From assembly GCF_007644105.1 (NCBI RefSeq), contig NZ_VFAC01000007.1, positions 1-64,000 of the forward strand: 64,000 bases of DNA, written 5' to 3'. Shown here in pieces: positions 7,584 to 29,031 of the stretch. The stretch comes from Elioraea rosea (lineage in GTDB: Bacteria > Pseudomonadota > Alphaproteobacteria > Acetobacterales > Acetobacteraceae). Below the pieces are notes generated by a model. The model ran no database searches and was not told where the DNA came from. It saw nothing but the letters and a program-made list of their open reading frames with translations. A program made the translations under genes and the position numbers. Numbering within the stretch: position 1 is the stretch's first letter; every line of letters begins with the position of its first letter.

Positions 7584-8873
7584 CTATCGGGGGGCGATGA
7601 GGATGGCGCGGATGTCGTTGACGTTGGTCAGCGTCGGCCCGGTTACGACAAGGTCACCGGTGCCTGAAAACAGGCTGTAGCTGTCGAAGCCGGCGGCGAG
7701 GGCGGCCGCGTCGAGGCCTGCGGCGCGGGCGCGGGCGATCGTGTCGGGGGTGACGATCGCGCCGGCGGCATCCTCCGTGCCGTCGATGCCGTCGGTGTCG
7801 CCGGCGATCGCCCAGATGCCTGGCGTGCCCTTCAGCGCGAGCGCGAGGCCCACGAGAAAGGCGGTGTTGCGCCCGCCGCGCCCGGCGGGGCCGGAGCCGA
7901 TCGTCACCGTCGTCTCGCCGCCCGAAAGCAGCACGCAAGGCGGTTTCGCGGGCGTGCCATGCGTGGCGCAGGCCAGCGCGATGCCGGCCATCACGGTGCC
8001 GACGATGCCGCTCTCGCCCTCGATCGCATCGCCGAGGATCAGCGGCGCGAGCCCGTGCGCGCGCGCGGCCTCGGCTGCCGCCTCGAGCGCCATCTGCGGC
8101 GTGGCGATCATGTGGAACGCGGCGCGATCGAGCCGCGGGTCGCCCGGCTTCGGCGTCTCCTCCTCCGCGCGCATCAGGTGCGCGGCCACCGCATCGGGAA
8201 GCGCGATGGCGTATTTCGCGACGAGCGCGCGCGCATCGGCGAAGCTCGTGGGGTCGGCGACGGTCGGGCCGGAGGCGATCACCGCCGGGTCGTCGCCCGG
8301 CACGTCGGAGATCGCGAGGGTGACGATGCGCGCAGGCGCCGCTGCCGCGGCGAGCCGTCCGCCCTTGATCGCGGAGAGGTGTTTCCGCACCGCGTTCATC
8401 TCGTGGATCGTCGCGCCGGAGGCGAGCAGGGCGCGGTTCACCGCCTGCTTGTCCTCCGCTGTCAGGCCGGGCGCGGGAAGCGACATGAGCGCCGAGCCGC
8501 CACCCGAGATGAGCGCGATGACGAGATCGTCCTCGCCGAGACCGCGCACCGCCTCGAGGATGCGCCGCGCCGCCGCCTCGCTCCGCGCGTCCGGCACGGG
8601 GTGGCGCGCCTCGAGCACGGCGATGCGCTTCGTCGGCACTGCATGGCCGTCACGCGTGACGACAACGCCTTCGACGGAGCCCTGCCACGCCTCCTCGAGA
8701 ACCGAGGCCATCAGCGCGGCCGACTTGCCCGCGCCGATCACCACCGTGCGCCCCTTCGGCGACGCGATTCCGGCGAGCGCCTTCGGCAACACACGCCGCG
8801 GGTCGGCCGCGGCGACCGCGCCATCGAACATGGCCCTCAGCGCCGCTCGCGCCGCAGCGTCCGTCACCTCCAC
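7584..8873 (-). CDS. gckA: glycerate 2-kinase (MOFRL family)
   Basis: Phosphorylates D-glycerate to 2-phosphoglycerate, linking glyoxylate, serine or tartrate breakdown to glycolysis. The 429-residue protein has the GckA/TtuD layout. An N-terminal domain carries VVIGAGKSAALMA and ALISGGGSALMSLPAPG. A C-terminal MOFRL domain carries VLLSGGETTVTI, GRGGRNTAFLVGLALAL and AGDTDGIDGTEDAAGA. It heads a two-gene operon with pyk. Also called ttuD or hydroxypyruvate reductase in older annotations; the kinase assignment is the better supported one. Confidence 0.94.
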   Translation of the reverse strand: MEVTDAAARAALRAMFDGAVAAADPRRVLPKALAGIASPKGRTVVIGAGKSAALMASVLEEAWQGSVEGVVVTRDGHAVPTKRIAVLEARHPVPDARSEAAARRILEAVRGLGEDDLVIALISGGGSALMSLPAPGLTAEDKQAVNRALLASGATIHEMNAVRKHLSAIKGGRLAAAAAPARIVTLAISDVPGDDPAVIASGPTVADPTSFADARALVAKYAIALPDAVAAHLMRAEEETPKPGDPRLDRAAFHMIATPQMALEAAAEAARAHGLAPLILGDAIEGESGIVGTVMAGIALACATHGTPAKPPCVLLSGGETTVTIGSGPAGRGGRNTAFLVGLALALKGTPGIWAIAGDTDGIDGTEDAAGAIVTPDTIARARAAGLDAAALAAGFDSYSLFSGTGDLVVTGPTLTNVNDIRAILIAPR

Positions 8874-8972
8874 GCCCGGAAACCTCCCTCATCCCAGCTC
8901 GGCGCGGGGAGTATGGCGAAGACCGTCCCGGCGCGCCATGTTGAGGGTCAGGTGTGTCACAGGAGGCGAGAC

Positions 8973-10981: not shown

Positions 10982-11254
10982 ATGGCCAAGGCAGCCGAGA
11001 AGACAGCCGACGACCAGACCTACGGCATCGCTGCCGACAGGCTCCGCAGCCTTGTCGAGCGCATCGAGCGGCTCGAGGAGGAGCGCAAGGCGCTCGCGGG
11101 CGACATCAAGGACATCTACGCCGAGGCCAAGTCGGCCGGGTTCGATGTGAAGGTGCTGCGGCAGATCATCCGCATCCGCAAGCAGGACCAGGCCGAGGTC
11201 GAGGAGCAGGAGAGCCTGCTCGATCTCTACAAGCGCGCCCTCGGCATGGGCTGA
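10982..11254 (+). CDS. gapR: GapR family nucleoid-associated protein (DUF2312/UPF0335)
   Basis: A 90-residue helical protein. The central coiled coil (RLRSLVERIERLEEERKALAGDIKDIYAEAK) and GFDVKVLRQIIRIRKQD are diagnostic of UPF0335. Caulobacter GapR encircles overtwisted AT-rich DNA ahead of replication and transcription and stimulates topoisomerases. The ATG at 10982 is preceded by GGAG at 10970-10973 with 8-nt spacing; a GTG at 10973 overlaps that site and is less likely. The gene is monocistronic, followed by a hairpin with a T run. Confidence 0.93.
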   Translation: MAKAAEKTADDQTYGIAADRLRSLVERIERLEEERKALAGDIKDIYAEAKSAGFDVKVLRQIIRIRKQDQAEVEEQESLLDLYKRALGMG

Positions 11255-11281
11255 GGGGGCGCGGCCCCCGGCGGGATTTTT
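11255..11281 (+). terminator. probable intrinsic terminator of gapR
   Basis: A GC-only hairpin, GGGGGC (11255-11260), 3-nt loop, GCCCCC (11264-11269), starts right after the gapR stop. A TTTTT run follows at 11277-11281. The T run is 7 nt from the stem, longer than ideal. Confidence 0.45.
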
Positions 11282-11301
11282 GCGCAGGCGTCGGCGCCGC
11301 G

Positions 11302-12552
11302 TCACGTCGCGGACAGCCCGTCGAACCAGGATTTCCACTCGGGCACCGCGCGCGCGAACGTGCCGCGATGCGTCGTCGGGCCGGTCGAGACCGCCTCGAC
11401 CCTGGCATTGCCCATCGCCCGCTGGAACTCCATCGCCAGCCGCCCGATGCCGTGGCGGATCGCCTCGTCTCTCTCGCCGTAGTGGTTGCGCACGGGCGTG
11501 CGGATGATCCAGCGATAGGCCTGGTTCGCGGCCATCTGGCGCCCGAAGGCGGAGGCCGTGAAGAAGCCCGGGTCGAAGTAGGCGTCCGCGATCAAGCTGC
11601 GCAGATCCGTCGGGATCCGTGCGGGGTCGACCACCTGTCCTTCATAGGCCTGCCTGCAGATGTCGTAGTGCTCCGGCCTTATCATCGACCGTGCGAGGCC
11701 GGGCAGGGCGTAGTAGGTCTCGAACGAGAAGGACGAGAGGATGAAGATCGTCGTGATCCAGGTCGCATCGATTGGTCGCGGGAAGTTCAGGAAGCCCGCG
11801 AGCGCGGCCCAAAGGTCGATCGGCGCGCTTGCCGTGGCGGTCGCTGTGACAGGCATGCCGATCGCCTCGAGCCGCTCGAGCAGCGCCATCGTCACGTAGC
11901 CGCCCTGCGACCAGCCGGACAGGAAGAGGTGACGGTCGGTGAGGCCCTCTGCCCGCAGCACCGTGCGGGCGGCGATGATCAGGTCGGCTGTTGCCTGCTG
12001 GTGGCTGCCCTTGACCATGTAGCCCTGCGGCTCGGTCGACTCGCCCATCCCGATGTAGTCGGCACCGATCACCGCGTAGCCCTGGCCCGCGAACTGCGCG
12101 ACCATGAGCTGGGTCTCGGGTGACTGCTCGGGGAAGGACGGAACCTGCTGTTTCCCGTACACGGTGCCGTGCTGGTACGAGAGGAGCGGCAGGGTGGCAG
12201 CGCCTGTCTCCGGAATGGCGACGAGGCCTGTGAGCGTGACGGGCGTGTTGCTTCGCTCCGGCACCACCGACGGATAGCTCACGCGATAGAGCCGCACCGC
12301 AGTGCGCGCGGGGCTGTAGGTGACCGGTATGCCCGCGAAGGCCGGCGTATCGGCGGTGAGGATCCGGTTCAGCCGCGCCACGTCCCACCGCGCGATGAGG
12401 CGATAGGTCACGTGGCCTGGCACCTTCTGCGCGGCTGCCGGCTGCGCCGCGCCCGGCGTGGCTGCGAGCGCCATCGCGCCGAGGCTCAGGCCTGCGGCCG
12501 CACCGGCCATCTGTCGCCGCGGCAGGCCTGGTGGTGGCGAGCGGTCACGCAT
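11302..12552 (-). CDS. exported alpha/beta hydrolase (secretory lipase-like)
   Basis: A 416-residue hydrolase with an N-terminal export signal of Tat type (PRRQMAGAAAGLSLGAMALA, cut near ATPGAAQ). The catalytic core shows YQHGTVYG, GADYIGMGES and the nucleophile elbow GWSQGG. A C-terminal histidine region (TTHRGTFARAVP) could supply the catalytic His. The size and layout resemble secretory lipases and triacylglycerol-lipase-like esterases. The substrate is unknown. It lies 77 bp downstream of an acyl-CoA ligase on the same strand, which fits fatty-acid release followed by activation, although the two may be independent. Confidence 0.82.
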   Translation of the reverse strand: MRDRSPPPGLPRRQMAGAAAGLSLGAMALAATPGAAQPAAAQKVPGHVTYRLIARWDVARLNRILTADTPAFAGIPVTYSPARTAVRLYRVSYPSVVPERSNTPVTLTGLVAIPETGAATLPLLSYQHGTVYGKQQVPSFPEQSPETQLMVAQFAGQGYAVIGADYIGMGESTEPQGYMVKGSHQQATADLIIAARTVLRAEGLTDRHLFLSGWSQGGYVTMALLERLEAIGMPVTATATASAPIDLWAALAGFLNFPRPIDATWITTIFILSSFSFETYYALPGLARSMIRPEHYDICRQAYEGQVVDPARIPTDLRSLIADAYFDPGFFTASAFGRQMAANQAYRWIIRTPVRNHYGERDEAIRHGIGRLAMEFQRAMGNARVEAVSTGPTTHRGTFARAVPEWKSWFDGLSAT

Positions 12553-12629
12553 GTCGTCCTCGCTGCGGGGGCTGGGTCGCGCGGGTACCGTGCCCGATCT
12601 TCGTTGACGAATGGCGAGCGAGCCGCCTG

Positions 12630-14414
12630 TCAGGCGTACATCCTCTCCACGATGTCCTTGTGCTCGCGCAGCACGATCTGGCGGCGCACCTTCTGCGTCG
12701 AGGTCAGCAGCCCGTTCTCGATCGTGAAGGCCGGAACCGCCCGCCAGTGGCGGATCCTCTCCGTCACCGTCAGCGTGCGGTTGGCCTCGTCCACCGCGAG
12801 GCCGATCTCCTTCTCGTCCGCCCCATCGGCCGGAACGATCAGCGCCACGAGATGCGACCGCCCGTCGCCCGCCACCACGGCCTGAGCGATCGCCGATTGC
12901 TGCGCGAGGATGCCTTCCACGCGCGCGGGGCTCACCATGTCGCCGCCCGTCGTCTTGATGATCTCCCGCTTGCGGTCGGTGATGCGCAGATAGCCGTCCT
13001 CGTCGAGCGAGCCGACATCGCCTGTGTGCAGCCAGCCATCGCGGATCGCTGCCTCGGTGGCCTCGGGGTTGTTCCAGTAGCCCTGCATCACGAGATCGCC
13101 GCGCACGAGGATCTCGCCGTCATTGGCGATGCGCACCTCGACATTGGGCAGAGGCAGGCCGACCGTGTCGATGCGGATGCGCCCCGGCGGGTTGGCCGCG
13201 ATCACCGGCCCCGCCTCCGTCTGCCCGTAGCCCTGCATGATCGGGATGCCGAGGGCGAGGAAGAAGCCGCCGACATCGGGGTCGAGGCGGGCGCCGCCGC
13301 TCATGATGCCCTTGAGCCTGCCGCCGAAGCGCGCGCGCACCTTGCGCCGCACGAGGAACTCGAGCGCCTTGTCGGCGAACCACCCCGTCGGCCCGAGGCT
13401 CTGCCCGCGCACCCGTCGCGCGCCGAGCGCGAGCGCGGCGACGAAGAGGTCGCGCTTCCATTTCGGCTCGCGCTTGAGGCCCGTGAGGATGCGCGAGCGG
13501 ATCACCTCGAACAGTCTTGGCACGGCGGTCATTACCGTCGGGCGCACCTCGAGCATCTCGGGCGCGATCCTGTCTGCGCCCGAGGCGTAGTAGATCTGCG
13601 TGCCGATCGAGAGAAGGAAGAACTGCCCGCAAGTGTGCTCGTAGCTGTGCGAGAGAGGCAGGAAGGAGAGGTAGACCTCGTCCTTGAGGCCGAGCGGCTT
13701 GAGCAGCTCCCACGCCCCGGCGCAGTTCGACAGGAGCGCGCGGTGCGGCAGCATCACGCCCTTCGGCGCCCCGCCCGTGCCGGAGGTGTAGATCAGGCAC
13801 GCCGTCTGCTCGCCCGGGATGGCGAGAAGCTCCTCTGCGAAGCCAGGCAGTGGCGGGCGGGAGACGCCCTCGGTCCAGGGCAGGACGGTGGTACCCGCAA
13901 GCGCGCCGACATCCTCCATCGCGACGACGAGGTCGAGCCCGCCGGCACGGCCCGCGCCGTCCATCAGCTTCTGCGCCAACGCCCGGGTCGAGACCACCGC
14001 TGCGCGGGCGCCGCTGTCTGCCAGCACATGGGCGATGTCGCCCGGCGTGAAGGTCGTGTAGGCGGGAACGCAGACGCCCCGCACCGCCATGATCGCAAGG
14101 TCGGCGATCGGCCATTCGGGCCGGTTCTCCGCAAGCAGGAGCACCCTGTCGCCAGGCTCCACGCCATGGGCGCGGAGCGCGGAGGCGAGGCCCGCCGCAG
14201 CCTGTCCGAGCGCGGCCCAGCTCGTTGCGCGCCAGGACGTGCCTTCCCTGGCCCACACGGCCGGGCGCTCGCCCCATTCGGCGGCGCGGGAAAACATCAT
14301 CGCGGCAAGGTTCGGCCAGGCGGGATAGCCCGAGCCTGCCTGCCCCATGGAAGCCAGCGCACCGTTGGCCTTAAGGCTCGCGGCAAGGTCATCCCAGTCA
14401 CCCGAATTCGTCAC
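12630..14414 (-). CDS. long-chain fatty acid-CoA ligase (AMP-dependent)
   Basis: A 594-residue adenylate-forming enzyme that activates fatty acids to acyl-CoA via an acyl-AMP. It shows the phosphate loop IYTSGTGGAPKGVMLPHRA, the A5 motif MQGYGQTEAGP, the A7 motif WLHTGDVGSLDEDGYL and the A8 hinge ITDRKREIIKTTGG. The catalytic C-terminal region is present up to LTSTQKVRRQ, where Lys sits in the A10 region. Length and linker fit the FadD15/FACL long-chain class rather than acetyl-CoA synthetase. The gene is divergent from the M3 peptidase gene across 140 bp. Confidence 0.92.
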   Translation of the reverse strand: MTNSGDWDDLAASLKANGALASMGQAGSGYPAWPNLAAMMFSRAAEWGERPAVWAREGTSWRATSWAALGQAAAGLASALRAHGVEPGDRVLLLAENRPEWPIADLAIMAVRGVCVPAYTTFTPGDIAHVLADSGARAAVVSTRALAQKLMDGAGRAGGLDLVVAMEDVGALAGTTVLPWTEGVSRPPLPGFAEELLAIPGEQTACLIYTSGTGGAPKGVMLPHRALLSNCAGAWELLKPLGLKDEVYLSFLPLSHSYEHTCGQFFLLSIGTQIYYASGADRIAPEMLEVRPTVMTAVPRLFEVIRSRILTGLKREPKWKRDLFVAALALGARRVRGQSLGPTGWFADKALEFLVRRKVRARFGGRLKGIMSGGARLDPDVGGFFLALGIPIMQGYGQTEAGPVIAANPPGRIRIDTVGLPLPNVEVRIANDGEILVRGDLVMQGYWNNPEATEAAIRDGWLHTGDVGSLDEDGYLRITDRKREIIKTTGGDMVSPARVEGILAQQSAIAQAVVAGDGRSHLVALIVPADGADEKEIGLAVDEANRTLTVTERIRHWRAVPAFTIENGLLTSTQKVRRQIVLREHKDIVERMYA

Positions 14415-14554
14415 CCGGCGTTATCCTCCCAGATCGGCCGCCCAGGCCGGCTCGGCCTGCGCGGCGGTGTCCCCGCAGCATCCCGCCCGTGCCGGTTGTC
14501 CCGGCCCGGCGCGGTGCCATATCCCTTCAGCGCCAACAGAGGTAGGAAGCCGCC

Positions 14555-19609: not shown

Positions 19610-20347
19610 ATGGCTGTTCCGAGGCGCGCCGATCTCGCACCACCGCAGAAGGCGGACACGCTGGCCGACCGCGCGGCGCTGCTCGGCCGAGCGCCGCTGC
19701 TCCGCCGCCTGCCTGCCGAGGCGCTGGCGCGACTCGCGGGCTTCGCGCATCTCCGGCCGATGACGAAGGGCGAGACGCTGTTCCGCAGGGGCGACCCCGG
19801 GACGGGACTGCTCCTCGTCGTGAAGGGACGAATCCGCGTCTCCGTTCCCTCGACGGAAGGACGCGACGGCGTTCTGAACCTCGTCCGCGCAGGCGAGGTG
19901 GTGGGCGAGATCGCGCTTCTCGACGGGCACCCCCGCACGGCGGACGCGATCGCCGATACCGACGGCGAGGTGATGCTCCTCGAGCGCCGCGACCTCCTGC
20001 CGCTTCTCGAGGAGAACGGCTCGCTCGCGCTCGCGCTGATGGAGGTTCTCTGCGAGCGCCTGCGGCAGACCTCCGCGCAGGTCGAGGCACTGATGTTCCA
20101 GGAGACGGGGCCGCGACTCGCGCGCGCGCTGCTGCAGCTCTCCGCGGTGCAGCGTCTCGCCTCCGTGGCGGTGACGCAGAAGCAGCTCGGCGAGATGGCG
20201 GGCACGAGCCGCGAGAGTGCCAATCGCACGCTTAAGGCGTGGGAGGCGAAGGGGTTCGTCTCGCTTGTCCCTGGCCGGGTGACGCTGCGCGACGAGGCGG
20301 CGATACGCACGATCGCCGAAGGCGTGCGCGAGCACCAGGAGGGCTAG
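19610..20347 (+). CDS. Crp/Fnr-family transcriptional regulator
   Basis: A 245-residue regulator with an N-terminal cyclic-nucleotide-binding-type beta barrel (GETLFRRGDPGTGLLLVVKGRIRV, GEVVGEIALLDGHPRTADAIAD), a long dimerisation helix and a C-terminal winged helix with recognition helix TQKQLGEMAGTSRESANRTLKAWE. The N-terminal Fe-S cysteines of FNR are absent, so it is CRP-like. GEIALLDGHPRTADA resembles the phosphate-binding cassette, but cAMP binding is not proven. The only visible cyclase gene in the window is about 5.6 kb downstream. Confidence 0.92.
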   Translation: MAVPRRADLAPPQKADTLADRAALLGRAPLLRRLPAEALARLAGFAHLRPMTKGETLFRRGDPGTGLLLVVKGRIRVSVPSTEGRDGVLNLVRAGEVVGEIALLDGHPRTADAIADTDGEVMLLERRDLLPLLEENGSLALALMEVLCERLRQTSAQVEALMFQETGPRLARALLQLSAVQRLASVAVTQKQLGEMAGTSRESANRTLKAWEAKGFVSLVPGRVTLRDEAAIRTIAEGVREHQEG

Positions 20348-20348
20348 C

Positions 20349-20708
20349 CTAGCCGTTTTCCTTCTTCGCGACCTCCACTTCCGCGGCGAGTTCGTGTTGA
20401 AGAAAGTAGTTGAGGAAGGTGCGGATCGCGGCGACCGCCGCAAGCTTGCCGATCTGTTCCCAGTTCGGAGAGATCGCCGTACCGACGATGTCGGCGGCAA
20501 GCTGGAACTCGAGCGCGAGCGACAAGCCGCGCGCGAGTGCGATTCGCGCTGCCGTCGTTCCGGACCCCAGAAGCTTGAACAGCGCGAAGGCAATGGCTGC
20601 GAGGACGATCGTCACGCTGATCGCCTCGATGCCGAGCTTCAGCCACGAGGCAGCCTCGATGACGGCCTGTTCCGCCGACGCGGAAAGCGCACGTTCCTCC
20701 ACCGCCAC
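20349..20708 (-). CDS. DUF1622 family membrane protein
   Basis: A 119-residue integral membrane protein with two or three predicted helices (ISVTIVLAAIAFALFKLL and LALEFQLAADIVGTAI, plus a C-terminal segment). The LARGLSLALEFQLAADIVGTAI core is the DUF1622 hallmark. It is the last gene of the radical SAM cassette, 6 nt after the subtilisin stop. Its role is unknown. DUF1622 proteins are often lone genes, so its linkage here may be incidental or may give the cassette a membrane anchor. Its stop lies 1 nt from the stop of the convergent CRP-family gene. Confidence 0.85.
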   Translation of the reverse strand: MAVEERALSASAEQAVIEAASWLKLGIEAISVTIVLAAIAFALFKLLGSGTTAARIALARGLSLALEFQLAADIVGTAISPNWEQIGKLAAVAAIRTFLNYFLQHELAAEVEVAKKENG

Positions 20709-20714
20709 CTCCCC

Positions 20715-23700
20715 CTAGCCGGCGCGCGCCGCGGGTGCCATCGTGACCGAGCACGAGGCGACGCGCCTTCCGGCAGACAGCATCAGCCCCGTCAGCCGAT
20801 TCGCGCCGCTACCCGCGATCAGCGCGAGCGGGACCGTCGCCCCCGCGGCGAGCCTGAGACGCGGCAGGACCACCGTCTGGCCCCCCTCGATCGTGGCGAA
20901 GCCATGCGCGATGCCGAGGCTCGTCGCACCGAGCGTCTCCGTCAGCGCCTCGATCGGCCGCTCGCCCTTCACCTGGTCGCGCAGATTGGCAACCGGGTCG
21001 AGCACCTCGTCGGAGGAGCCCGCATAGGGCCGCCGCCTCTGTCCCCAGGGTCCCGCATAGAGCCCGGCACGGCGATAGGGCAGGGCAGCCGAGGGGATGA
21101 CGAGGCGGAGGAAGGAGGCGCCGGGCGCGCGAAGGACGAGCCCGTCCTCGTCGTCGCTTCCCGTGACAAGCAGACGCAGCCGCGTGCCCATCGGGGCGCT
21201 CCGGGCGCTGGCGAGCGAACGGATCGCCGCATTGTTCCGTGCAGGCAACGGCTCGTCCGCGCTCAGCGGGTCGTCGGGGCTGTCGATCGTCGCGACGAGC
21301 AGGGGGGTGGACGGGTCAGGCTGCGGCCAGGCGAGCCGCGCCGTGTACCGGTTTCGCGGCTTGACCTCGCCGAGGGCCTGCTCGGCGATCAGCGTGAACA
21401 GCCCTTGCCGCTTCGGCGAGGGTGGCGTGGCAGCGAGCGAGGCCGGCGCGGCCCACAGCCTGAGCACGGCCTCGCGTGCCGGTGCGCCGCCGCGGTTGCC
21501 GTAGCGCACGGTGACGGTGGCGGGACCCTGGCAGGCGGCGAGGTCACCCACCGGCGCGCCCTCCTCGTCGGCCACCGCGATGGCGGGGCTCGCGCAGAGG
21601 TCCTCCGACACAAGAGGTTCGATGCCTGTATCGCCCTCGTATCGTTCGACCCAAAGATCGGCTCCCGCGACGGCTTCCTCGCCTGTCGCTGCAACCATCG
21701 CTGCGATGTCGAGCGCGCCGAAGCCGGCGGCGGGGTCCCACCCCGTGGCGTCCTCCGGCGTATCGGCGGGGCCGAGCGCGACCACGTCGCGGCGCGCCGT
21801 TTCGCAGAGCACCTGGCGGATGTCGGCAGCCGCGGGGGCAAGGCCGGTCAGCGCATGGATGCGCTCGCAGTAGAGCGCGGCTGCGCCTGCCACCTGGGGG
21901 GCCGCGAAGCTCGTGCCGCCGCTCGTCCGCACCGGTCCGCCATTGGTGATCAGCCCCCGCATCGAGGGCGCGGTGACGAAGGCGCCGATGGCGGAAAGCT
22001 CGGGCTTGGGGAACCCGCCGCCGCGAACCGGGCCGCGGCCCGAGAAGTCCGACACGCGCATCGGCGCGCCGTCGCTCCGCGCATCGAGCGAGGCGACGGC
22101 GAGAACGCGCCGCGCGGTTGCCGGAACGTTCACCGTCGTGCCGAGCGCGATGCCGTCGATGCCGGGCTGGCCGAGCCAGCGGCGGAGCATCCGGTTGTTG
22201 CGATCCACCCAGCCATGCACGTCGCCGCTCGCGCCATGGACGAGAAACTGCCAGGTGCCGCGCGGCAGCGTCGCGCCAGGTGCCGGGCGCACCGTCAGGG
22301 TGAGGCAGCAGAGGCCGCCCGCCTCGCGCGACAGCAGCCCCTCTGCCAAGAAGCCTGACGGTGCGGGCGAGACGGGGATCGGCACGATGCCGTCCGTCTC
22401 GCGCACGGTCACCGGCCCGATCATCCGTGCCGGAGCGAGGATGCCCGAGATCGTCACCGAGGCCGCGCCGGTGCTCTCGAACCAGAGCTCGGCCGCCTCG
22501 GCGAAGAGGCAGCCCGGCGCGAACTCGAGCGCGAGCGCGACGTCACGTGCCGTGGCATCGCCAGGCACCACGGCGTGTGCGGGCATCGGCACGGGCGGCA
22601 GGCCCTGGAAGCGGAGCAGGTGCTCGTTGCCCGCCGCGACGACGAGCGCGCGGCCGGGCAGGAGGAGCAGGTTGTCTAGGAACTCCTCGCCGAGGAGGCC
22701 GCCGTCATGCGGTCCGAGATTGTCGCCGTTGGAGAGGTTGACGACGACGCCCGCGAAGGGCGCGAGAGGCGTTGCGGTGGCGAACAGGTCTGCCACGCCC
22801 GCAAGCATCGCTGCCTCGTTGCCGAAGCGCCGTTCGTCCTGCCCCGCCGCCGCGACGAAGGCGAGCGCTGCCTCGGGCGCGATGCCAGGGAGGCTGCGCT
22901 GGGCGAGCCTGCCGCTTCCGCCAGCGATGCCGGCGACCATCGTGCCATGCGTCTGCAGCACGGTGCGGTCGCCGGCTGCGGTCGGCGCGAGAGGCAGGTC
23001 GCGCGCGCGCACGAGATGGGCGAGCGCGCCGGATGGGGCCCCGCCCGCCGCGTGCGCCGCGATCGCGACATCGATCTCGCCGCGCTCGAAGCGCGCCCCC
23101 ATCGCCGGCTGGCCGGGCCCCGGGCGCGGCGGCAGCGAGAGATCGTGCAGCCAGGCGAGCCGAGTGGTTCCGTCCTCATTCCGGAGATCGGGATGCAGCA
23201 GGTCGATGAAGGTGTCGACCACGCCGACCAGCGTTCCCGCCCCGGTGAGCCCCTCCGCACCGTCGCCGTGGGGAGGCAGGGCATGGACGCGGGCGACCTC
23301 CACCGGCGTCGCTGCGGCCTGCCAGGTTCGCCCCGGCTCGGCGCGCACGGTGGCAGGGTGCTCGAGCACGCGCACGAGACCGATGACGTTGACCCACACG
23401 ACGAAGATGTCGGCCGCCTGAGCGGCGACCTCCGCGCCGAGTGCCTCGAGCTCCGCCCTCTGGCCGAGGAAGCGGAGAAGCACGCCGGCGAAAGGGCGGG
23501 AGCGGTCGAAGGTCGTGACGATGCCGGCCTCCCGCGCCTCGGCCGCGCGGCGGAACGCAAGCCGCTCGGGCGTGGCCGTGATGCCGAGCCGCCGCGCGTA
23601 CTCGTCGAGCGCCTCGAGCCCCTCGCGCACGGTCTCGTCCACCGCCTCGTCGGCGAGCGAGGCGAGCAGGGCGGTGACGCGCCCCGAGAGGCTGAGGCCG

Positions 23701-23792
23701 TAGCGTGTGGCCGATGGCGCGCCTGCGCGCGGCTTGTCGCGCGGCGTGACCGGTGCGACCCGCCTCCGCCTCGGAGGGTCGCGTTCCGTCAC
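20715..23792 (-). CDS. large cytoplasmic S8 (subtilisin-like) serine peptidase
   Basis: A 1025-residue subtilase. The triad is visible: Asp193 (LVGVVDTFIDLLHPDL), His282 (THGTMVAGIAGGSG) and Ser628 (GGTSFAAPQVAGAAALY), with the oxyanion Asn389 (VVAAGNE). About 170 residues are inserted between Asn389 and Ser628. About 180 residues precede the Asp and could be a prodomain. A 300-residue beta-rich tail follows the catalytic domain. The arginine-rich N-terminus (PPRRRRVAP) is not a signal peptide, so action in the cytoplasm is likely. Its start overlaps the preceding gene by 4 nt. In this setting it may process the cassette's product. Confidence 0.9.
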   Translation of the reverse strand: MTERDPPRRRRVAPVTPRDKPRAGAPSATRYGLSLSGRVTALLASLADEAVDETVREGLEALDEYARRLGITATPERLAFRRAAEAREAGIVTTFDRSRPFAGVLLRFLGQRAELEALGAEVAAQAADIFVVWVNVIGLVRVLEHPATVRAEPGRTWQAAATPVEVARVHALPPHGDGAEGLTGAGTLVGVVDTFIDLLHPDLRNEDGTTRLAWLHDLSLPPRPGPGQPAMGARFERGEIDVAIAAHAAGGAPSGALAHLVRARDLPLAPTAAGDRTVLQTHGTMVAGIAGGSGRLAQRSLPGIAPEAALAFVAAAGQDERRFGNEAAMLAGVADLFATATPLAPFAGVVVNLSNGDNLGPHDGGLLGEEFLDNLLLLPGRALVVAAGNEHLLRFQGLPPVPMPAHAVVPGDATARDVALALEFAPGCLFAEAAELWFESTGAASVTISGILAPARMIGPVTVRETDGIVPIPVSPAPSGFLAEGLLSREAGGLCCLTLTVRPAPGATLPRGTWQFLVHGASGDVHGWVDRNNRMLRRWLGQPGIDGIALGTTVNVPATARRVLAVASLDARSDGAPMRVSDFSGRGPVRGGGFPKPELSAIGAFVTAPSMRGLITNGGPVRTSGGTSFAAPQVAGAAALYCERIHALTGLAPAAADIRQVLCETARRDVVALGPADTPEDATGWDPAAGFGALDIAAMVAATGEEAVAGADLWVERYEGDTGIEPLVSEDLCASPAIAVADEEGAPVGDLAACQGPATVTVRYGNRGGAPAREAVLRLWAAPASLAATPPSPKRQGLFTLIAEQALGEVKPRNRYTARLAWPQPDPSTPLLVATIDSPDDPLSADEPLPARNNAAIRSLASARSAPMGTRLRLLVTGSDDEDGLVLRAPGASFLRLVIPSAALPYRRAGLYAGPWGQRRRPYAGSSDEVLDPVANLRDQVKGERPIEALTETLGATSLGIAHGFATIEGGQTVVLPRLRLAAGATVPLALIAGSGANRLTGLMLSAGRRVASCSVTMAPAARAG

Positions 23793-24397
23793 GCTCCCGA
23801 CGGTCCGGTGGCGATCGAGTGGCCGATCAGGTCACCGACGGCGGAGAGGAGCAGCATCTTCTCGACCTGCACCGTCTCCTCGTCGAGCAAAAGCGCGAGG
23901 AAGGTGCGGATCCGGTCGAACCGTGCCCGGTCGGTTGCCTTGGTTGCGGCGAGCGCGCGGCCCCAGGCCGAGGCGTACTGCGCCTCCGAGACGGGTCGCG
24001 TGAGGCCGATCAGCATCCGCACCGTGCGCTTGGCACGGCCGGCGACGATGAAGGTGCCGAGATAGCGCGCGCTTCCCGCGAGCTCGCTGTCGGCGAAGAG
24101 CGTGTCGGAGACGAGCTCGGCCAGCTCCGTCTCGTTGCTCACGCCGGGGCTGTCGGACTCCTTGTCGGTCAGCCAGTCCTGCACCGCCGCAGCGCTCTGC
24201 CACGAGAGAACGGCGGTGACGGAGATGATCGCCGCGAGCGTGCCGGAGACATTGATGCCGGCGGCGGGCGCCGCGCCATGCTCGCCGAAGAACGGCAGCG
24301 CCGCTTCCGTGCGCACCTCGGAGACAATCTCTCCTGCCCGTGGCTCGCCTGCGCCAAGGCGGGCGAGAAGCTCGCGTGGGGAGATGTCATTCGTCAT
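23789..24397 (-). CDS. hypothetical 202-residue protein, candidate substrate of the radical SAM cassette
   Basis: I do not recognise this family. The protein has no cysteine. Residues 1-48 are charged and leader-like (SPRELLARLGAGEPR). Residues 51-72 form a hydrophobic stretch (GTLAAIISVTAVLSWQSAAAV). The remainder is helical, ending LIGHSIATGPSGA. Its start overlaps the PqqD-like gene and its stop overlaps the subtilisin gene, 4 nt each, so all three are translationally coupled. Position between an RRE-like protein and a protease suggests it is either the modified substrate or a scaffold. It is far larger than usual RiPP precursors. Function unproven. Confidence 0.75.
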   Translation of the reverse strand: MTNDISPRELLARLGAGEPRAGEIVSEVRTEAALPFFGEHGAAPAAGINVSGTLAAIISVTAVLSWQSAAAVQDWLTDKESDSPGVSNETELAELVSDTLFADSELAGSARYLGTFIVAGRAKRTVRMLIGLTRPVSEAQYASAWGRALAATKATDRARFDRIRTFLALLLDEETVQVEKMLLLSAVGDLIGHSIATGPSGA

Positions 24398-24726
24398 GGG
24401 GGCGTGTCCTTCCGGGTCTGCATCGAGGCGTGGGGGTTGGCGGCGGTGGTGACGAGGCCGAGCGCGGCAAGCTGCTCGAGCCCGCGCGAGAACGCGCCCT
24501 GCTCCGGCGCGGGGCCGGGCAGGGAGCGGAGCGCGTCGTTGAACTCGGCGGCGATCGCCGCGCGTGGCCGTCCGTCGCAGAGCGTCAGCAGCAGCCAGGA
24601 TGTGGCGTTCAGCGTGTGCAGCCGCGCGCGCGCCGGGTCGTAGGCGAGGCAGGTCCCCATCTCCGGCACCGGCCTCAGGCGCAGGCCGCGCGCGGCGCTA
24701 ACGCAGTCGGTCGGGGAGAACGGCAA
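24394..24726 (-). CDS. PqqD-like protein (RRE fold)
   Basis: A 110-residue protein with the PqqD pattern. The N-terminal strands (LRLRPVPEMGTCLAYDPA) lead to the hallmark LHTLNATSWLLLTLCDG and a C-terminal helical part. PqqD-type domains bind the leader of a precursor and present it to a radical SAM enzyme. It overlaps the end of the radical SAM gene by 29 nt and the start of the 202-aa gene by 4 nt. No pqqA, pqqB, pqqC or pqqE is nearby, so this is not PQQ synthesis. Confidence 0.82.
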   Translation of the reverse strand: MPFSPTDCVSAARGLRLRPVPEMGTCLAYDPARARLHTLNATSWLLLTLCDGRPRAAIAAEFNDALRSLPGPAPEQGAFSRGLEQLAALGLVTTAANPHASMQTRKDTPP

Positions 24727-25711
24727 GGTCCACTCCCTCGTTCAGCGTCACGTCGAACGGATCGGGCGCTTCCCAGCGCCCGTGGAAGGCAAAGGCGGTC
24801 GAGCGGCAGCCGCCATGGCTCCTCTGCGTCGCCGAGCAGTCCGGGCAGGAGGCTTCGACATTGCCCGAGCGGATGCGGCGGTAGAGCGGATCGTTCCGCC
24901 AGGCATCGAGGTAGGAGCGCTCGAGGATGTTGCCGTAGTTCACGTACTCGCGGAGATACTGGCAGCCGATGATGTCGCCTGCCGCATCCAGCGCTGCGGC
25001 CTGCCAGCAGCAGTTCTGGTCGCGCGGGTGCCAGGACTGCATGACGCCGAGCCCGTCCGGCGGGTCGAGCGAGGCGATCGCTGCCATCTGCGCCTCGAGC
25101 GGCAGCGCGATCTCCTCCCAGATGCGCTTGGCGCGCCCGAGCGGGTAGAGCCTCAGAATGCCCACCCGTTCGGCGCCGAGACGATGCGCGAGGCGAAGGA
25201 TCGCGTTCAGCCGCGGGGCCGTGCGGCGCGTCAGGACCACGAGCGCATCGACGGGGATGCCACGCCGCGCGCATTCCTCGATCGCCGTGCAGGCGGAATC
25301 GAACGCGCCCGGCGCGCCGGCGGTCGCGTCGTGGGAGGCTGCGTCGTCGCCCATCAGGTCCACGAGCACGCGGCCGACACGGATGGCGGCGAGCCGGTCC
25401 GCCACGGCGGCGTCGAGGCCGGCGCCGCGTGTTCGCACGAGCGTCATCATCCGCGGCGCGACGGCCTCGAGCAGGTCGAGGAAGCCGGGCTTGGCGAAAG
25501 GCTCGCCGCCTTCGAAATAGACCTGGATGAACCCGTCATCGGCGAGCTTCGCCAGCACCTCGCGCCAGGCAGGGATGGAAAGCTCGCGCGGCTTGGGCGC
25601 CGCGGAACAGTCGCTGTAGCAGTGCGCGCAGGCGTGCGGACAGGCCTCGGTGATCGAGACCGAGATCTTCGGTGGCGTCTCGAGGACGGGGTTTGCATAC
25701 GCAGCAGTCAT
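24698..25711 (-). CDS. radical SAM/SPASM protein (peptide/protein maturase)
   Basis: A 337-residue enzyme. The cluster motif CPHACAHC (Cys24, Cys28, Cys31) binds the SAM [4Fe-4S] cluster, and GGEP follows at 68-71. The C-terminal SPASM region is clear: Cys235-x9-Gly-x4-Cys250, then Cys289-x2-Cys292 and Cys302, able to hold auxiliary clusters. This is the architecture of PqqE and RiPP maturases. It is the first gene of a five-gene minus-strand cassette with a PqqD-like partner, a 202-aa protein, a subtilisin and DUF1622. The reaction is unknown. Cys35 and Cys234 are additional cysteines close to the clusters. Confidence 0.9.
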   Translation of the reverse strand: MTAAYANPVLETPPKISVSITEACPHACAHCYSDCSAAPKPRELSIPAWREVLAKLADDGFIQVYFEGGEPFAKPGFLDLLEAVAPRMMTLVRTRGAGLDAAVADRLAAIRVGRVLVDLMGDDAASHDATAGAPGAFDSACTAIEECARRGIPVDALVVLTRRTAPRLNAILRLAHRLGAERVGILRLYPLGRAKRIWEEIALPLEAQMAAIASLDPPDGLGVMQSWHPRDQNCCWQAAALDAAGDIIGCQYLREYVNYGNILERSYLDAWRNDPLYRRIRSGNVEASCPDCSATQRSHGGCRSTAFAFHGRWEAPDPFDVTLNEGVDLAVLPDRLR

Positions 25712-25911: not shown

Positions 25912-28900
25912 ATGGCACATGACGGTGCGATGACCCTCTCCTGCCGCGACTGCGGCGAGGTGCTGCCGCCCGCGGCGCGCTTCTGCCCGGCCTGCGGCAC
26001 GCGCGTCGCGCAGGCGGCGCCGGGGCCGGTGGCCGATGGCGGCGAGCGCCGGCATGTGACCGTTCTCTTCTGCGACCTCGTCGGGTCGACCGGACTCGCC
26101 GCGAGGATGGATCCCGAGGAGTTCGCCGACCTGCTCGTCGCCTACCGGCAGGAGGCGATCGGCTGCGCGCGGCGGCATGGCGGGCACATCACCCGGTATG
26201 TCGGCGACGGCATCCTGATGACCTTCGGGTACCCGCGCGCGCTCGGGCGCGACGCCGAGGCGGCCATTGCCTGCGGGCTCGAGCTTGTCGGCGCGATCAC
26301 CGCACGCTACCCGGACGGCGTGGCCGGGCGGCCGGTGACGGTGCGTATCGGGATCGAGAGCGGCCTCGTGCTCATCGGCAATATCGGGCCCGAGGGCGGC
26401 GTCGAGCAGGACGCGATCGTGGGCGATGTGCCCAACACGGCCGCCAAGCTCCAGGTCGCGGCCCCGCCTGGCGGGGTGGTGATCGGGGAGGGCACGCAGC
26501 GCGTCGCGGGCCAGCATTTCCTCTGCCGCGACATCGGCGCCCCGCCCGGCCTCGCGCGCCCGATGCGGGTGCAGCTCGTGACGGGCCGGGCTCATTCCGC
26601 CCGCGTGCGCCTCGGCTTCGACGGCGCGCCGCCGCCCCTGATTGGCCGCGAGGCGGAGCTCGAGGCGCTCGCGACACGCTGGCGCAAGGCGGCGGACGGA
26701 TACGGCCAGGTCGTGTTCCTCAGCGGCGAGGCGGGCATCGGCAAGTCGCGCCTCGCGCTGGCCCTCAGCGAGCGCATCGCGCAGGCGAGTGCCGCGCATG
26801 CCGACCTGGTCGCCACCTGCGCGCCGCAGACGGAAAGCTCCGCGCTTCGCCCGCTCGTCGTCGCCCTTCGGCGCGCGCTCGGCCTCGGCGATGCCGCGCC
26901 CGCCTCGGACATCGCCGCCGCCGCCGACCAGCTCATCGACATGCTGAGGCTGCCGCGCGAACCGGCGCGGTCGATCCTCGCGGCCCTTCTCGAGGGCGGC
27001 GACCTTCCCTCCGCAGCGACGCTCGACATGACGCCGGAGGCCATCCGCCGCGTGGTGTTCGACGCGCTTCTCGCCTTCGTCGCGCAGAAGGCAGAGCAGG
27101 CGCCGCTGATGTTCCTGGTCGAGGACCTGCACTGGGCAGACCCCTCGCTTCTGGCGTTCGTGCGCCTTCTCGTCGAGCAGATCGTGCGCCAGCGCGTGCT
27201 CCTGGTCGCCACGCACCGGCCGGAGATGGTGCCGGACGTTCCCGAGCACGGGCATGTGCTCCGGCTCGCGCTGCGGCCGCTGGCGGCATCCGAAAGCCGC
27301 CGCATCGTCGCGGCCGGCGTCGGCGCGGGTCTCGATGAGGCGACGGTGGGGCGCATCGTCGCCCGCTGCGACGGCGTGCCGCTCTTCCTCGAGGAGTACG
27401 CCCGCGCCGCGACCGAGCGTGGCGGGGCGGAAGAGGCAGAGGTGCCGGAGACGCTCGCGGAGGTGCTCGAATCGCGCCTCGATGCCGTCGGCGAGGCGAA
27501 GGCAACCGCACAGGTCGCCGCCGTTCTCGGCCGCGAGGTGACGGCCGATCTGCTTCGCCCGCTCTGCGGCCTCGGCCCGGAGGCGCTTCTGTCGCATCTC
27601 GATCGCCTTGCCGCCGCGGGGCTTCTCGTGCCGACGCGCGCCGTACCCGAGCCCGCCTATGCGTTCCGCCACGCCGTCCTGCGCGAGGCGGCCTATGCGA
27701 GCCTCAGGCGGGACAAGCGTCGCGCGCTGCATCGCGCGACCGCCGAGCTGATCGCCTCCGCCCATCCCGAGCTTGCCCGCGCCGAGCCGGAGACGGTGGC
27801 ACTGCACTGGGCCGAGGCGGGCGAGGCGCAGCGCGCGGCCGCGCTCTGGCGCGTCGCCGCCGCGCGCGCTCTCGGCGCCTCGGCGAACGAGGAGGCCGAG
27901 CGGCATGTGCGCGCAGCACTTCGCGTGCTTCCCCCTGGCGAGCAGGCAGGCGAGGAGACGCGGCTGCTCACGCTGCAGCTGATGCTGCAGCTCGGCTCCG
28001 CGCTCACCGCCCTGCGCGGCTATGCCGCCCCCGAGACCTTTGATGCGTTCGAATCCGCCCGGCGCCTCGCGGAGGGGCTCACCGATGCCGCGAGCCTCTA
28101 CCCGGTGCTGTCGGGTCTGAAGGCGTTCTACATGGTGCGCGGCCCGCTGCCCGAGGCGCGGCGGCTCGGCGAGAGGCTGCTCGCGCTCGCCGAGCGTGGT
28201 GGCAACCCTGCCCATCTGCGCGACGCGCGCCGCCGCATGGGCTGGTGCCTGACCGCGATGGGCGAGCTCGCCGACGGCGAGGCGATGCTGCGCCAGGTCG
28301 TCGCCGAGGAAGGGCCGGTGCCGGAGGGCGCAGGCAGCGACGTGGTGGCCATGGCGTGGGGCAACCTCGCGATGAACGCGATGCTCGCTGGCCCCGCAGA
28401 GACGGCGCGCGCCGCCGCGGAGGCCGGCGTGCGCCGGGCGCGCCGCGGCAGCCACTCGCTCAGCCTCGCCTATGCCGCGGGCCTGGCCGCAACCTCTGCG
28501 CAAGTGCTGGGCGATGTCGAGGCGACGCGCAGCCTCGCCGAGGAGGTGCACGCCGTCGCGCTCGACCGCGGCATCACCTACTGGTCGGCCATGGCGCGAA
28601 TCATTTCGGGCTGGGTGCGGGCCGTCGATGGGGAGCCGGCCGACGGGGTGGCCCGCATCCGTGCCGGCATCGCGCTCTATCTCGACACGCAGGGCGCCGT
28701 GCTCCTGCCCTACGCGCAGGGCCTGCTCGCCGATGCGCTTGCGCTCGCGGGCCAGGAGGAGGCGGCACGCGAAGCCGTGCGGCACGGCATCGCCACGGCC
28801 ACCACGCTCGGCGGCAAGGCCTTCCTGCCCGATCTCCTGCGCCGCCTCGGCACGCTCGGCGAGGCAGACGCGTTCGACCGCGCGGCCGCGCTCGCCGAAG

Positions 28901-29031
28901 TCATGGGCGCCCACCTCGCTCTCGAGCGGATCGTGCGGGCGCGGGCTCACGCGGTGGCGGCGGACGCTGCCGGAGGGGCGACGGCGGGTGACACCCGGGC
29001 GAGCAGCCTCAGCGCCGGCGGCATCGCGTAG
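25912..29031 (+). CDS. zinc-ribbon / class III nucleotide cyclase / AAA ATPase / helical-repeat signalling protein
   Basis: A 1039-residue protein with four parts: a zinc ribbon (Cys11, 14, 25, 28), a class III cyclase domain (about 47-225), a STAND-like ATPase (Walker A GEAGIGKS at 272-279, Walker B LMFLVEDLHWAD) and a long TPR-like helical C-terminus. Both metal Asp are present (Asp55 in FCDLVGST, Asp99 in YVGDG). The transition-state Arg of NxxxR is Lys179 (NTAAKLQ), so cyclase activity may be weak. The ATG at 25912 is chosen; 25930 is an alternative. It is divergent from the radical SAM cassette across 200 bp. Its 3' end overlaps the convergent BASS gene by 85 nt. Confidence 0.88.
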   Translation: MAHDGAMTLSCRDCGEVLPPAARFCPACGTRVAQAAPGPVADGGERRHVTVLFCDLVGSTGLAARMDPEEFADLLVAYRQEAIGCARRHGGHITRYVGDGILMTFGYPRALGRDAEAAIACGLELVGAITARYPDGVAGRPVTVRIGIESGLVLIGNIGPEGGVEQDAIVGDVPNTAAKLQVAAPPGGVVIGEGTQRVAGQHFLCRDIGAPPGLARPMRVQLVTGRAHSARVRLGFDGAPPPLIGREAELEALATRWRKAADGYGQVVFLSGEAGIGKSRLALALSERIAQASAAHADLVATCAPQTESSALRPLVVALRRALGLGDAAPASDIAAAADQLIDMLRLPREPARSILAALLEGGDLPSAATLDMTPEAIRRVVFDALLAFVAQKAEQAPLMFLVEDLHWADPSLLAFVRLLVEQIVRQRVLLVATHRPEMVPDVPEHGHVLRLALRPLAASESRRIVAAGVGAGLDEATVGRIVARCDGVPLFLEEYARAATERGGAEEAEVPETLAEVLESRLDAVGEAKATAQVAAVLGREVTADLLRPLCGLGPEALLSHLDRLAAAGLLVPTRAVPEPAYAFRHAVLREAAYASLRRDKRRALHRATAELIASAHPELARAEPETVALHWAEAGEAQRAAALWRVAAARALGASANEEAERHVRAALRVLPPGEQAGEETRLLTLQLMLQLGSALTALRGYAAPETFDAFESARRLAEGLTDAASLYPVLSGLKAFYMVRGPLPEARRLGERLLALAERGGNPAHLRDARRRMGWCLTAMGELADGEAMLRQVVAEEGPVPEGAGSDVVAMAWGNLAMNAMLAGPAETARAAAEAGVRRARRGSHSLSLAYAAGLAATSAQVLGDVEATRSLAEEVHAVALDRGITYWSAMARIISGWVRAVDGEPADGVARIRAGIALYLDTQGAVLLPYAQGLLADALALAGQEEAAREAVRHGIATATTLGGKAFLPDLLRRLGTLGEADAFDRAAALAEVMGAHLALERIVRARAHAVAADAAGGATAGDTRASSLSAGGIA

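Follow-up and report, generated by a model that had tools for sequence, protein, structure and literature searches.

A stretch of 64,000 nucleotides from the alphaproteobacterium Elioraea rosea (Acetobacteraceae; assembly GCF_007644105.1, contig NZ_VFAC01000007.1, positions 1 to 64,000, hereafter the window) carries a group of genes that we read, at a probability of roughly 0.6, as a protein-maturation cassette operating on the logic of ribosomally synthesized and post-translationally modified peptides (RiPPs). Its conserved unit is formed by a nucleotide cyclase/AAA/TPR protein, a radical S-adenosylmethionine (SAM) enzyme with a SPASM domain, a PqqD-like stand-alone RiPP recognition element (RRE) and a protein of 202 residues, named here protein X; an S8 subtilase is an optional addition. 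According to this reading the RRE would bind a leader at the N-terminus of X, the radical SAM enzyme would modify X, the subtilase could cleave it and the cyclase protein would exert control. The computed support comprises the conservation of the genes and their joint decay, the conservation of the leader segment, a stand-alone leader peptide, the RRE fold and an intact protease site.

Protein X resembles a leader joined to a folded protein

Protein X is encoded on the minus strand at 23789-24397, in the position where a precursor would be expected, and the original prediction had taken it for a protein-sized substrate on these grounds. The comparison of sequences agrees with this proposal, since the N-terminus of X appears leader-like in 21 divergent homologues that occupy the same slot, and a similar segment is found on a stand-alone 54-residue peptide described below. 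The homologues are 169-235 residues long and have little sequence in common, with only R29, Y112, G114 and T115 invariant. Three parts can be distinguished: a putative leader (residues 1-36, encoded at 24290-24397, minus strand), a disordered linker (residues ~37-54) and a predicted alpha/beta-barrel-like domain (residues ~55-190). The conserved N-terminal segment ends with a [VI]R[TS] motif at positions 28-30, whose Arg is R29 (21/21). Mean identity between lineages is 30% for the leader and 21% for the rest of X, and 52% for the radical SAM enzyme. No N-terminal hydrophobic signal was seen in the hydropathy profile of X.

It had been left open in the original prediction that the 202-residue protein might belong to a known enzyme family, but it has no match in Pfam, NCBIfam, PADLOC or the sequences of the PDB. 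Searches of Pfam and NCBIfam with 16 members, and of the PDB sequences with a profile of X, gave isolated weak matches at most. An AlphaFold model of X from the window, computed from two sequences only, has a mean predicted local distance difference test (pLDDT) score of 61 (about 75 in the core) and a predicted template modelling score of 0.62. It places a helix at residues 7-16, a strand at 24-29 and a low-confidence region at 30-52, followed by a core with the ferredoxin-like order beta-alpha-beta-beta-alpha-beta. Foldseek, which the original prediction had proposed for this protein, found nothing significant with the model (best E = 0.012), and several of the top rows were core folds of M16 peptidases and cytochrome bc1 with poor root-mean-square deviations. 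With VIA-align, residues ~54-191 were matched to NIPSNAP-like 5kak (Z 5.5), 5k9f, 1vqs, MhuD and IsdG, tied with M16 peptidase domains. Judging from the model, the core of X likely adopts a NIPSNAP-like dimeric alpha/beta-barrel fold; the predicted order of strands and helices is shared with those proteins, whereas there is no sequence match, X has a leader and a linker in addition, and the Z scores are only about 5.

The 13 of 21 homologues without Cys, X from the window among them, can be excluded from thioether chemistry for that reason. A conserved Trp (W145) was considered as a modification site and dropped, as inspection of the alignment suggests that non-equivalent Trp residues of different subgroups had been joined in this column. 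Taken together, the sequences suggest that X most likely begins with a RiPP leader, to which a folded protein is joined, and that X is the substrate.

A stand-alone putative leader in Roseomonas nepalensis

One locus of Roseomonas nepalensis (L005) has the radical SAM and PqqD-like genes and lacks X; a complete cassette with X lies on another contig of the same genome. The radical SAM gene of L005 is closely preceded by an open reading frame (ORF) of 54 codons (8786-8950), whose product, MNKLASIAELAKKLDIIEPPVVQEVDRHVRSGEMFPPGEWHTRTVAAEKHEDKR, aligns to the leader of X. A leader model built without this ORF gave it 13.7 bits (E = 0.012 among 5220 six-frame segments), the best score after the true X genes, and the chance of such a match among the 13 segments near the radical SAM gene is about 3e-5. 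The ORF is separated from the radical SAM gene by a hairpin (-38 kcal/mol, z = -4.8), and a gene for an EamA transporter overlaps the 3' end of the PqqD-like gene by 4 nucleotides. The simplest reading of this arrangement would be that the leader segment rides on a short peptide in L005 and on a folded protein in all other copies.

A degenerate X gene is a possible source of the 54-residue ORF, yet the ORF lies upstream, not downstream, of the enzyme genes. As is expected of a RiPP system, an RRE is encoded with the modifying enzyme, and a conserved segment with a putative leader function is found beside the enzymes, both on the 21 members of X and on the 54-residue ORF. A short precursor giving a peptide product, however, is seen in L005 at most: everywhere else the leader is joined to a predicted domain of ~130 residues, and because of this we describe the cassette as RiPP-like in its working and do not file it as a RiPP.

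The radical SAM enzyme and the PqqD-like protein

The five ORFs first reported as a cassette (radical SAM enzyme, PqqD-like protein, X, subtilase and a DUF1622 protein) were recovered at the same positions, with overlaps of 29, 4 and 4 nucleotides and a gap of 6 nucleotides before the DUF1622 gene, and the four family names given to them other than PqqD were borne out by Pfam. The radical SAM/SPASM enzyme (24698-25711, minus strand, 337 residues) scores above cut-off with both PF04055 (Radical_SAM, 54.5 bits) and PF13186 (SPASM, 29.4 bits). Its SAM-cluster motif, CxxxCxxC, is formed by C24, C28 and C31, with an extra Cys at position 35, and the SPASM region contains five Cys (C235, C250, C289, C292 and C302), compared with the seven of classical SPASM domains. 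These columns are kept in 22-23 of 23 homologues. No equivalog cut-off of NCBIfam is reached by the enzyme, its best relative being mycofactocin MftC (128.8 bits, cut-off 265).

The PqqD-like protein (24394-24726, minus strand, 110 residues, TTG start) stays below the Pfam PqqD cut-off (17.7 bits, cut-off 23.4), but homologues pass PF05402 with 28.8 and 26.4 bits, and its AlphaFold model (pLDDT 75) resembles PqqD and other RREs. The top matches among PDB structures were PqqD (5sxy) and the leader-bound lasso-peptide RRE TbiB1 (5v1u/5v1v), with a probability of 1.00, and similarity extends to radical SAM enzymes that bear an RRE (TigE and the sactipeptide synthase of 5why). RREs hold the leader as an added beta-strand, and the strand predicted at residues 24-29 of X would fit this mode of binding.

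Distribution and composition of the cassette

The nearest relative of the genome that holds the window is Elioraea sp. bin.267. A profile built from four radical SAM sequences was used to scan genomes for the family. Within Acetobacteraceae, 15 of 299 genomes have a match at E < 1e-100; the family is sharply bounded, because no other of the 299 passes 1e-60. Sampling 385 genomes of the class added one match (G392), from another alphaproteobacterial family, and among 299 genomes drawn from the phylum there were two matches, both in one additional genus (g365). This genus was examined more deeply and 5 of its 118 genomes were positive, while a sample of 249 genomes of its order returned the same two genomes only. 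Another copy of the cassette is borne by a plasmid of Microvirga ossetica; the gene table of this plasmid shows the radical SAM and cyclase genes only, with PqqD and X (L006, 9965-10933) unlisted, and may be incomplete. Relatives of the radical SAM enzyme were not found among the viral contigs searched, and a protein search of plasmids with X gave no match.

We collected 24 loci to compare gene content. The order radical SAM, PqqD-like, X is kept in every locus where the contig continues, with the exception of L005, and since more than 20 loci repeat this order, the cassette is not a product of chance. The joint occurrence of radical SAM, PqqD and subtilisin genes, on which the original prediction depended, recurs in other genomes. 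Its five-gene boundary, on the other hand, had to be redrawn. A homologue of the cyclase/AAA/TPR protein, which had been overlooked, adjoins the cassette wherever the contig permits, again except in L005, and is nearly always divergent. The subtilase gene is present in 14 loci, the window included, where it shares the strand of its neighbours and follows X or precedes the radical SAM gene; it is absent from seven (five of the g365 genus, Microvirga and G288) in which flanks of ~9 kb were examined. DUF1622 is found in the two Elioraea loci only. Because DUF1622 is confined to Elioraea and the subtilase is missing from seven loci, the conserved unit comes down to four genes (cyclase/AAA/TPR, radical SAM, PqqD and X), to which the protease is an optional addition; a five-gene core and DUF1622 as a component were both rejected. 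In the g365 genus the cassette consists of the cyclase, radical SAM, PqqD and X genes only, and therefore X is the sole conserved candidate substrate encoded there.

The components of the cassette are also inherited and lost together. A profile of X, run on the same 299 genomes, finds X in 14 of the 15 positive genomes, once in each and adjacent to the radical SAM gene; in the fifteenth (G313) the contig ends inside the cassette. Outside these genomes, matches to X were confined to G256, G287 and four fragments at the level of chance. In G256 the radical SAM, S8, cyclase and X genes survive in broken form, and G287 retains pieces of the X and cyclase genes; as remnants of several cassette genes are found in both, the components decay together. 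The fragments in G034, G143, G194 and G234, and a match with internal stops in G036, were treated as chance. The distance matrices of the components correlate, which fits co-inheritance, although such a correlation is inseparable from shared ancestry and alone is no proof of interaction. The remnants in G287 and G256 (L060 and L061) are flanked by undecaprenyl-diphosphatase-like and ispG-like genes, and in a sister genome with an intact cassette (L037) the downstream gene is similar to that beside the remnants.

Subtilase, cyclase and neighbouring genes

The S8 subtilase of the window (20715-23792, minus strand, 1025 residues; PF00082, 87.6 bits) shows no N-terminal hydrophobic signal by hydropathy. 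The catalytic Asp, His, Asn and Ser are aligned in every intact member. A first pattern search had suggested a catalytically dead protease in L028 and L032, but the alignment overturned this, with all four residues in place. In L027 the S8 gene (11184-14473) consists of two overlapping ORFs, which may be due to a frameshift or an assembly error.

The cyclase/AAA/TPR protein is encoded divergently, on the plus strand at 25918-29031. It combines a zinc ribbon, a class III nucleotide cyclase, AAA_16 and TPR regions; PF00211 and PF13191 are above cut-off, whereas TPR_12 and the zinc ribbon are weak matches. The metal-binding Asp residues of the cyclase and the Walker Lys are each conserved in 19/19 sequences, and the protein is probably the regulator of the system.

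The DUF1622 protein (20349-20708, minus strand; PF07784, 84.7 bits) adjoins the cassette in the window and is no part of the conserved system. A gene for a CRP/FNR-type regulator (19610-20347) is convergent with the cassette, and both of the Elioraea loci have it next to DUF1622. Near some cassettes there is a separate trio of genes (L005, 12775-17261; L092, 4684-7644), encoding a second S8 protease, a cyclase/TPR protein of 613 residues and a PAP2-domain protein, which are 59-69% identical between R. nepalensis and G192.

Discussion

We infer four steps for the cassette: leader binding, modification, cleavage and regulation. The PqqD-like RRE would bind the N-terminal leader of X and deliver the protein to the radical SAM/SPASM enzyme. 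This enzyme would alter a residue of X by a chemistry that, in most members, would have to be independent of Cys. The modified site could lie in the barrel domain or, as the short form of R. nepalensis may suggest, near the leader. The subtilase, where encoded, would then cut the disordered linker, giving a folded and modified alpha/beta-barrel-type protein in the cytoplasm, and the divergent cyclase/AAA/TPR protein would probably govern the system. A more specific proposal is that the cassette represents a new class of maturation, guided by an RRE, in which the radical SAM enzyme installs a protein-derived cofactor or a crosslink in a globular barrel protein by chemistry other than thioether formation, and that the same enzyme family also acts on a short peptide; we put this forward tentatively, at somewhat below even odds.

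Several observations weigh against the maturation of X. The subtilase is dispensable in the seven loci named above. The fold of X comes from the two-sequence model, and its structural matches, at Z <= 5.5, are equalled by those to M16 peptidase domains, among others. There is no obvious modification site in the barrel domain save the invariant YxGT, which is possibly structural. The 54-residue ORF is a single case and could be the relic of an X gene, and the divergence of the PqqD-like protein tracks the core of X better than its leader, so that co-evolution of leader and RRE is unsupported.

The short form of R. nepalensis can also be taken to mean that the real modified product is made of the ~45 N-terminal residues of X, which the subtilase would free as a small peptide or cofactor, the barrel being a carrier, a follower or a fused enzyme. 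The N-terminal segment and some 20 residues are all that is encoded there, so the segment and the enzyme suffice in that locus; the overlap of the EamA transporter gene with the PqqD-like gene is as expected for an exported small product, and most members of X have a hydrophobic or aromatic residue a few positions past [VI]R[TS]. The segment itself, however, looks like a leader, with a helix and a beta-strand, the residues past the motif are variable, and the barrel is retained in all other copies, those without a subtilase included, and we consider this explanation unlikely. Nor does it seem probable that X is an enzyme or adaptor working with the radical SAM and PqqD-like proteins on a substrate encoded elsewhere, its N-terminus serving as a docking tag for PqqD; we rate this lower still. 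Docking tags would likewise be conserved and the fold predicted for X does occur in small monooxygenases and heme-degrading enzymes, but no second leader-bearing ORF of comparable score is found in the cassette genomes, the R. nepalensis pair excepted, the 54-residue ORF next to the radical SAM gene carries the tag alone, and the core of X evolves fastest of all parts, which would be atypical for a catalytic partner. The presence in the conserved unit of the cyclase/AAA/TPR gene, in which neither the catalytic Asp pair nor the Walker Lys is lost, together with the patchy distribution, could finally point to a signalling or conflict system in which this protein senses stress and switches the cytoplasmic protease, the signal or target being X and its modification. 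The protease is lacking in part of the loci and PADLOC reports only weak similarity to subtilases and viperin, and we regard such a role as very improbable.

The closest system in logic to the proposed maturation of X is QhpC/D/E, which matures quinohemoprotein amine dehydrogenase and of which the cassette is not a member. QhpD is a radical SAM enzyme that acts on QhpC, a protein-sized substrate with an N-terminal leader, and the 28-residue leader is removed by QhpE, a subtilisin-like cytoplasmic protease (PMC7876137). The two would have in common a radical SAM enzyme that acts on a protein-sized, leader-bearing substrate, and in the 14 loci with a subtilase also a subtilisin-like protease, and by analogy the order of events may be the same here. 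QhpD, however, forms thioethers between Cys and Asp or Glu, and the crosslinked Cys of the gamma subunit QhpC can have no counterpart in the X homologues without Cys; further, our cassette has a separate PqqD-like protein, and its conserved part does not include QhpF (an exporter), QhpG (a flavoprotein) or the dehydrogenase subunits. Like the pyrroloquinoline quinone (PQQ) system (PqqA/PqqD/PqqE), it pairs a radical SAM/SPASM enzyme with a stand-alone RRE of the PqqD type and has a substrate that putatively bears a leader, and the second copy of R. nepalensis has the same layout of short ORF, radical SAM, PqqD and transporter. Unlike PqqA, X is 169-235 residues long with a folded domain, the radical SAM enzyme scores 100.2 bits on the PqqE equivalog (cut-off 381), and the other pqq genes are outside the conserved cassette. 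MftC, which also works with a small RRE partner, is the best relative of the radical SAM enzyme, but the score is far under the equivalog cut-off and the conserved cassette contains no mycofactocin genes. Likewise, the best NCBIfam relative of the PqqD-like protein is the HPr-rel-A system PqqD family chaperone (TIGR04353), at 29.8 bits, below the cut-off of 35, and an HPr-related gene is likewise absent from the conserved cassette. We found no account of such a system in the open-licence literature of PubMed Central, although subscription journals could hold one. The parts and the logic are known; new, as far as can be told, are the joining of a leader to a globular domain, the partnership with a cyclase/AAA/TPR protein, and an enzyme family whose substrates include both proteins and peptides.

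Searches for RiPPs usually seek short precursors, and leaders fused to folded proteins can therefore escape them. The cassette family offers a testable set with which to address whether whole proteins are among the targets of RRE-guided radical SAM enzymes, which chemistry these enzymes use in substrates free of Cys, and how a leader moves between peptide and protein. A protein-derived cofactor in X, if true, would join a small known group that includes tryptophan tryptophylquinone (TTQ), cysteine tryptophylquinone (CTQ) and others, and the proposed new class, if correct, would illustrate the transfer of a RiPP leader to, or from, an ordinary protein.
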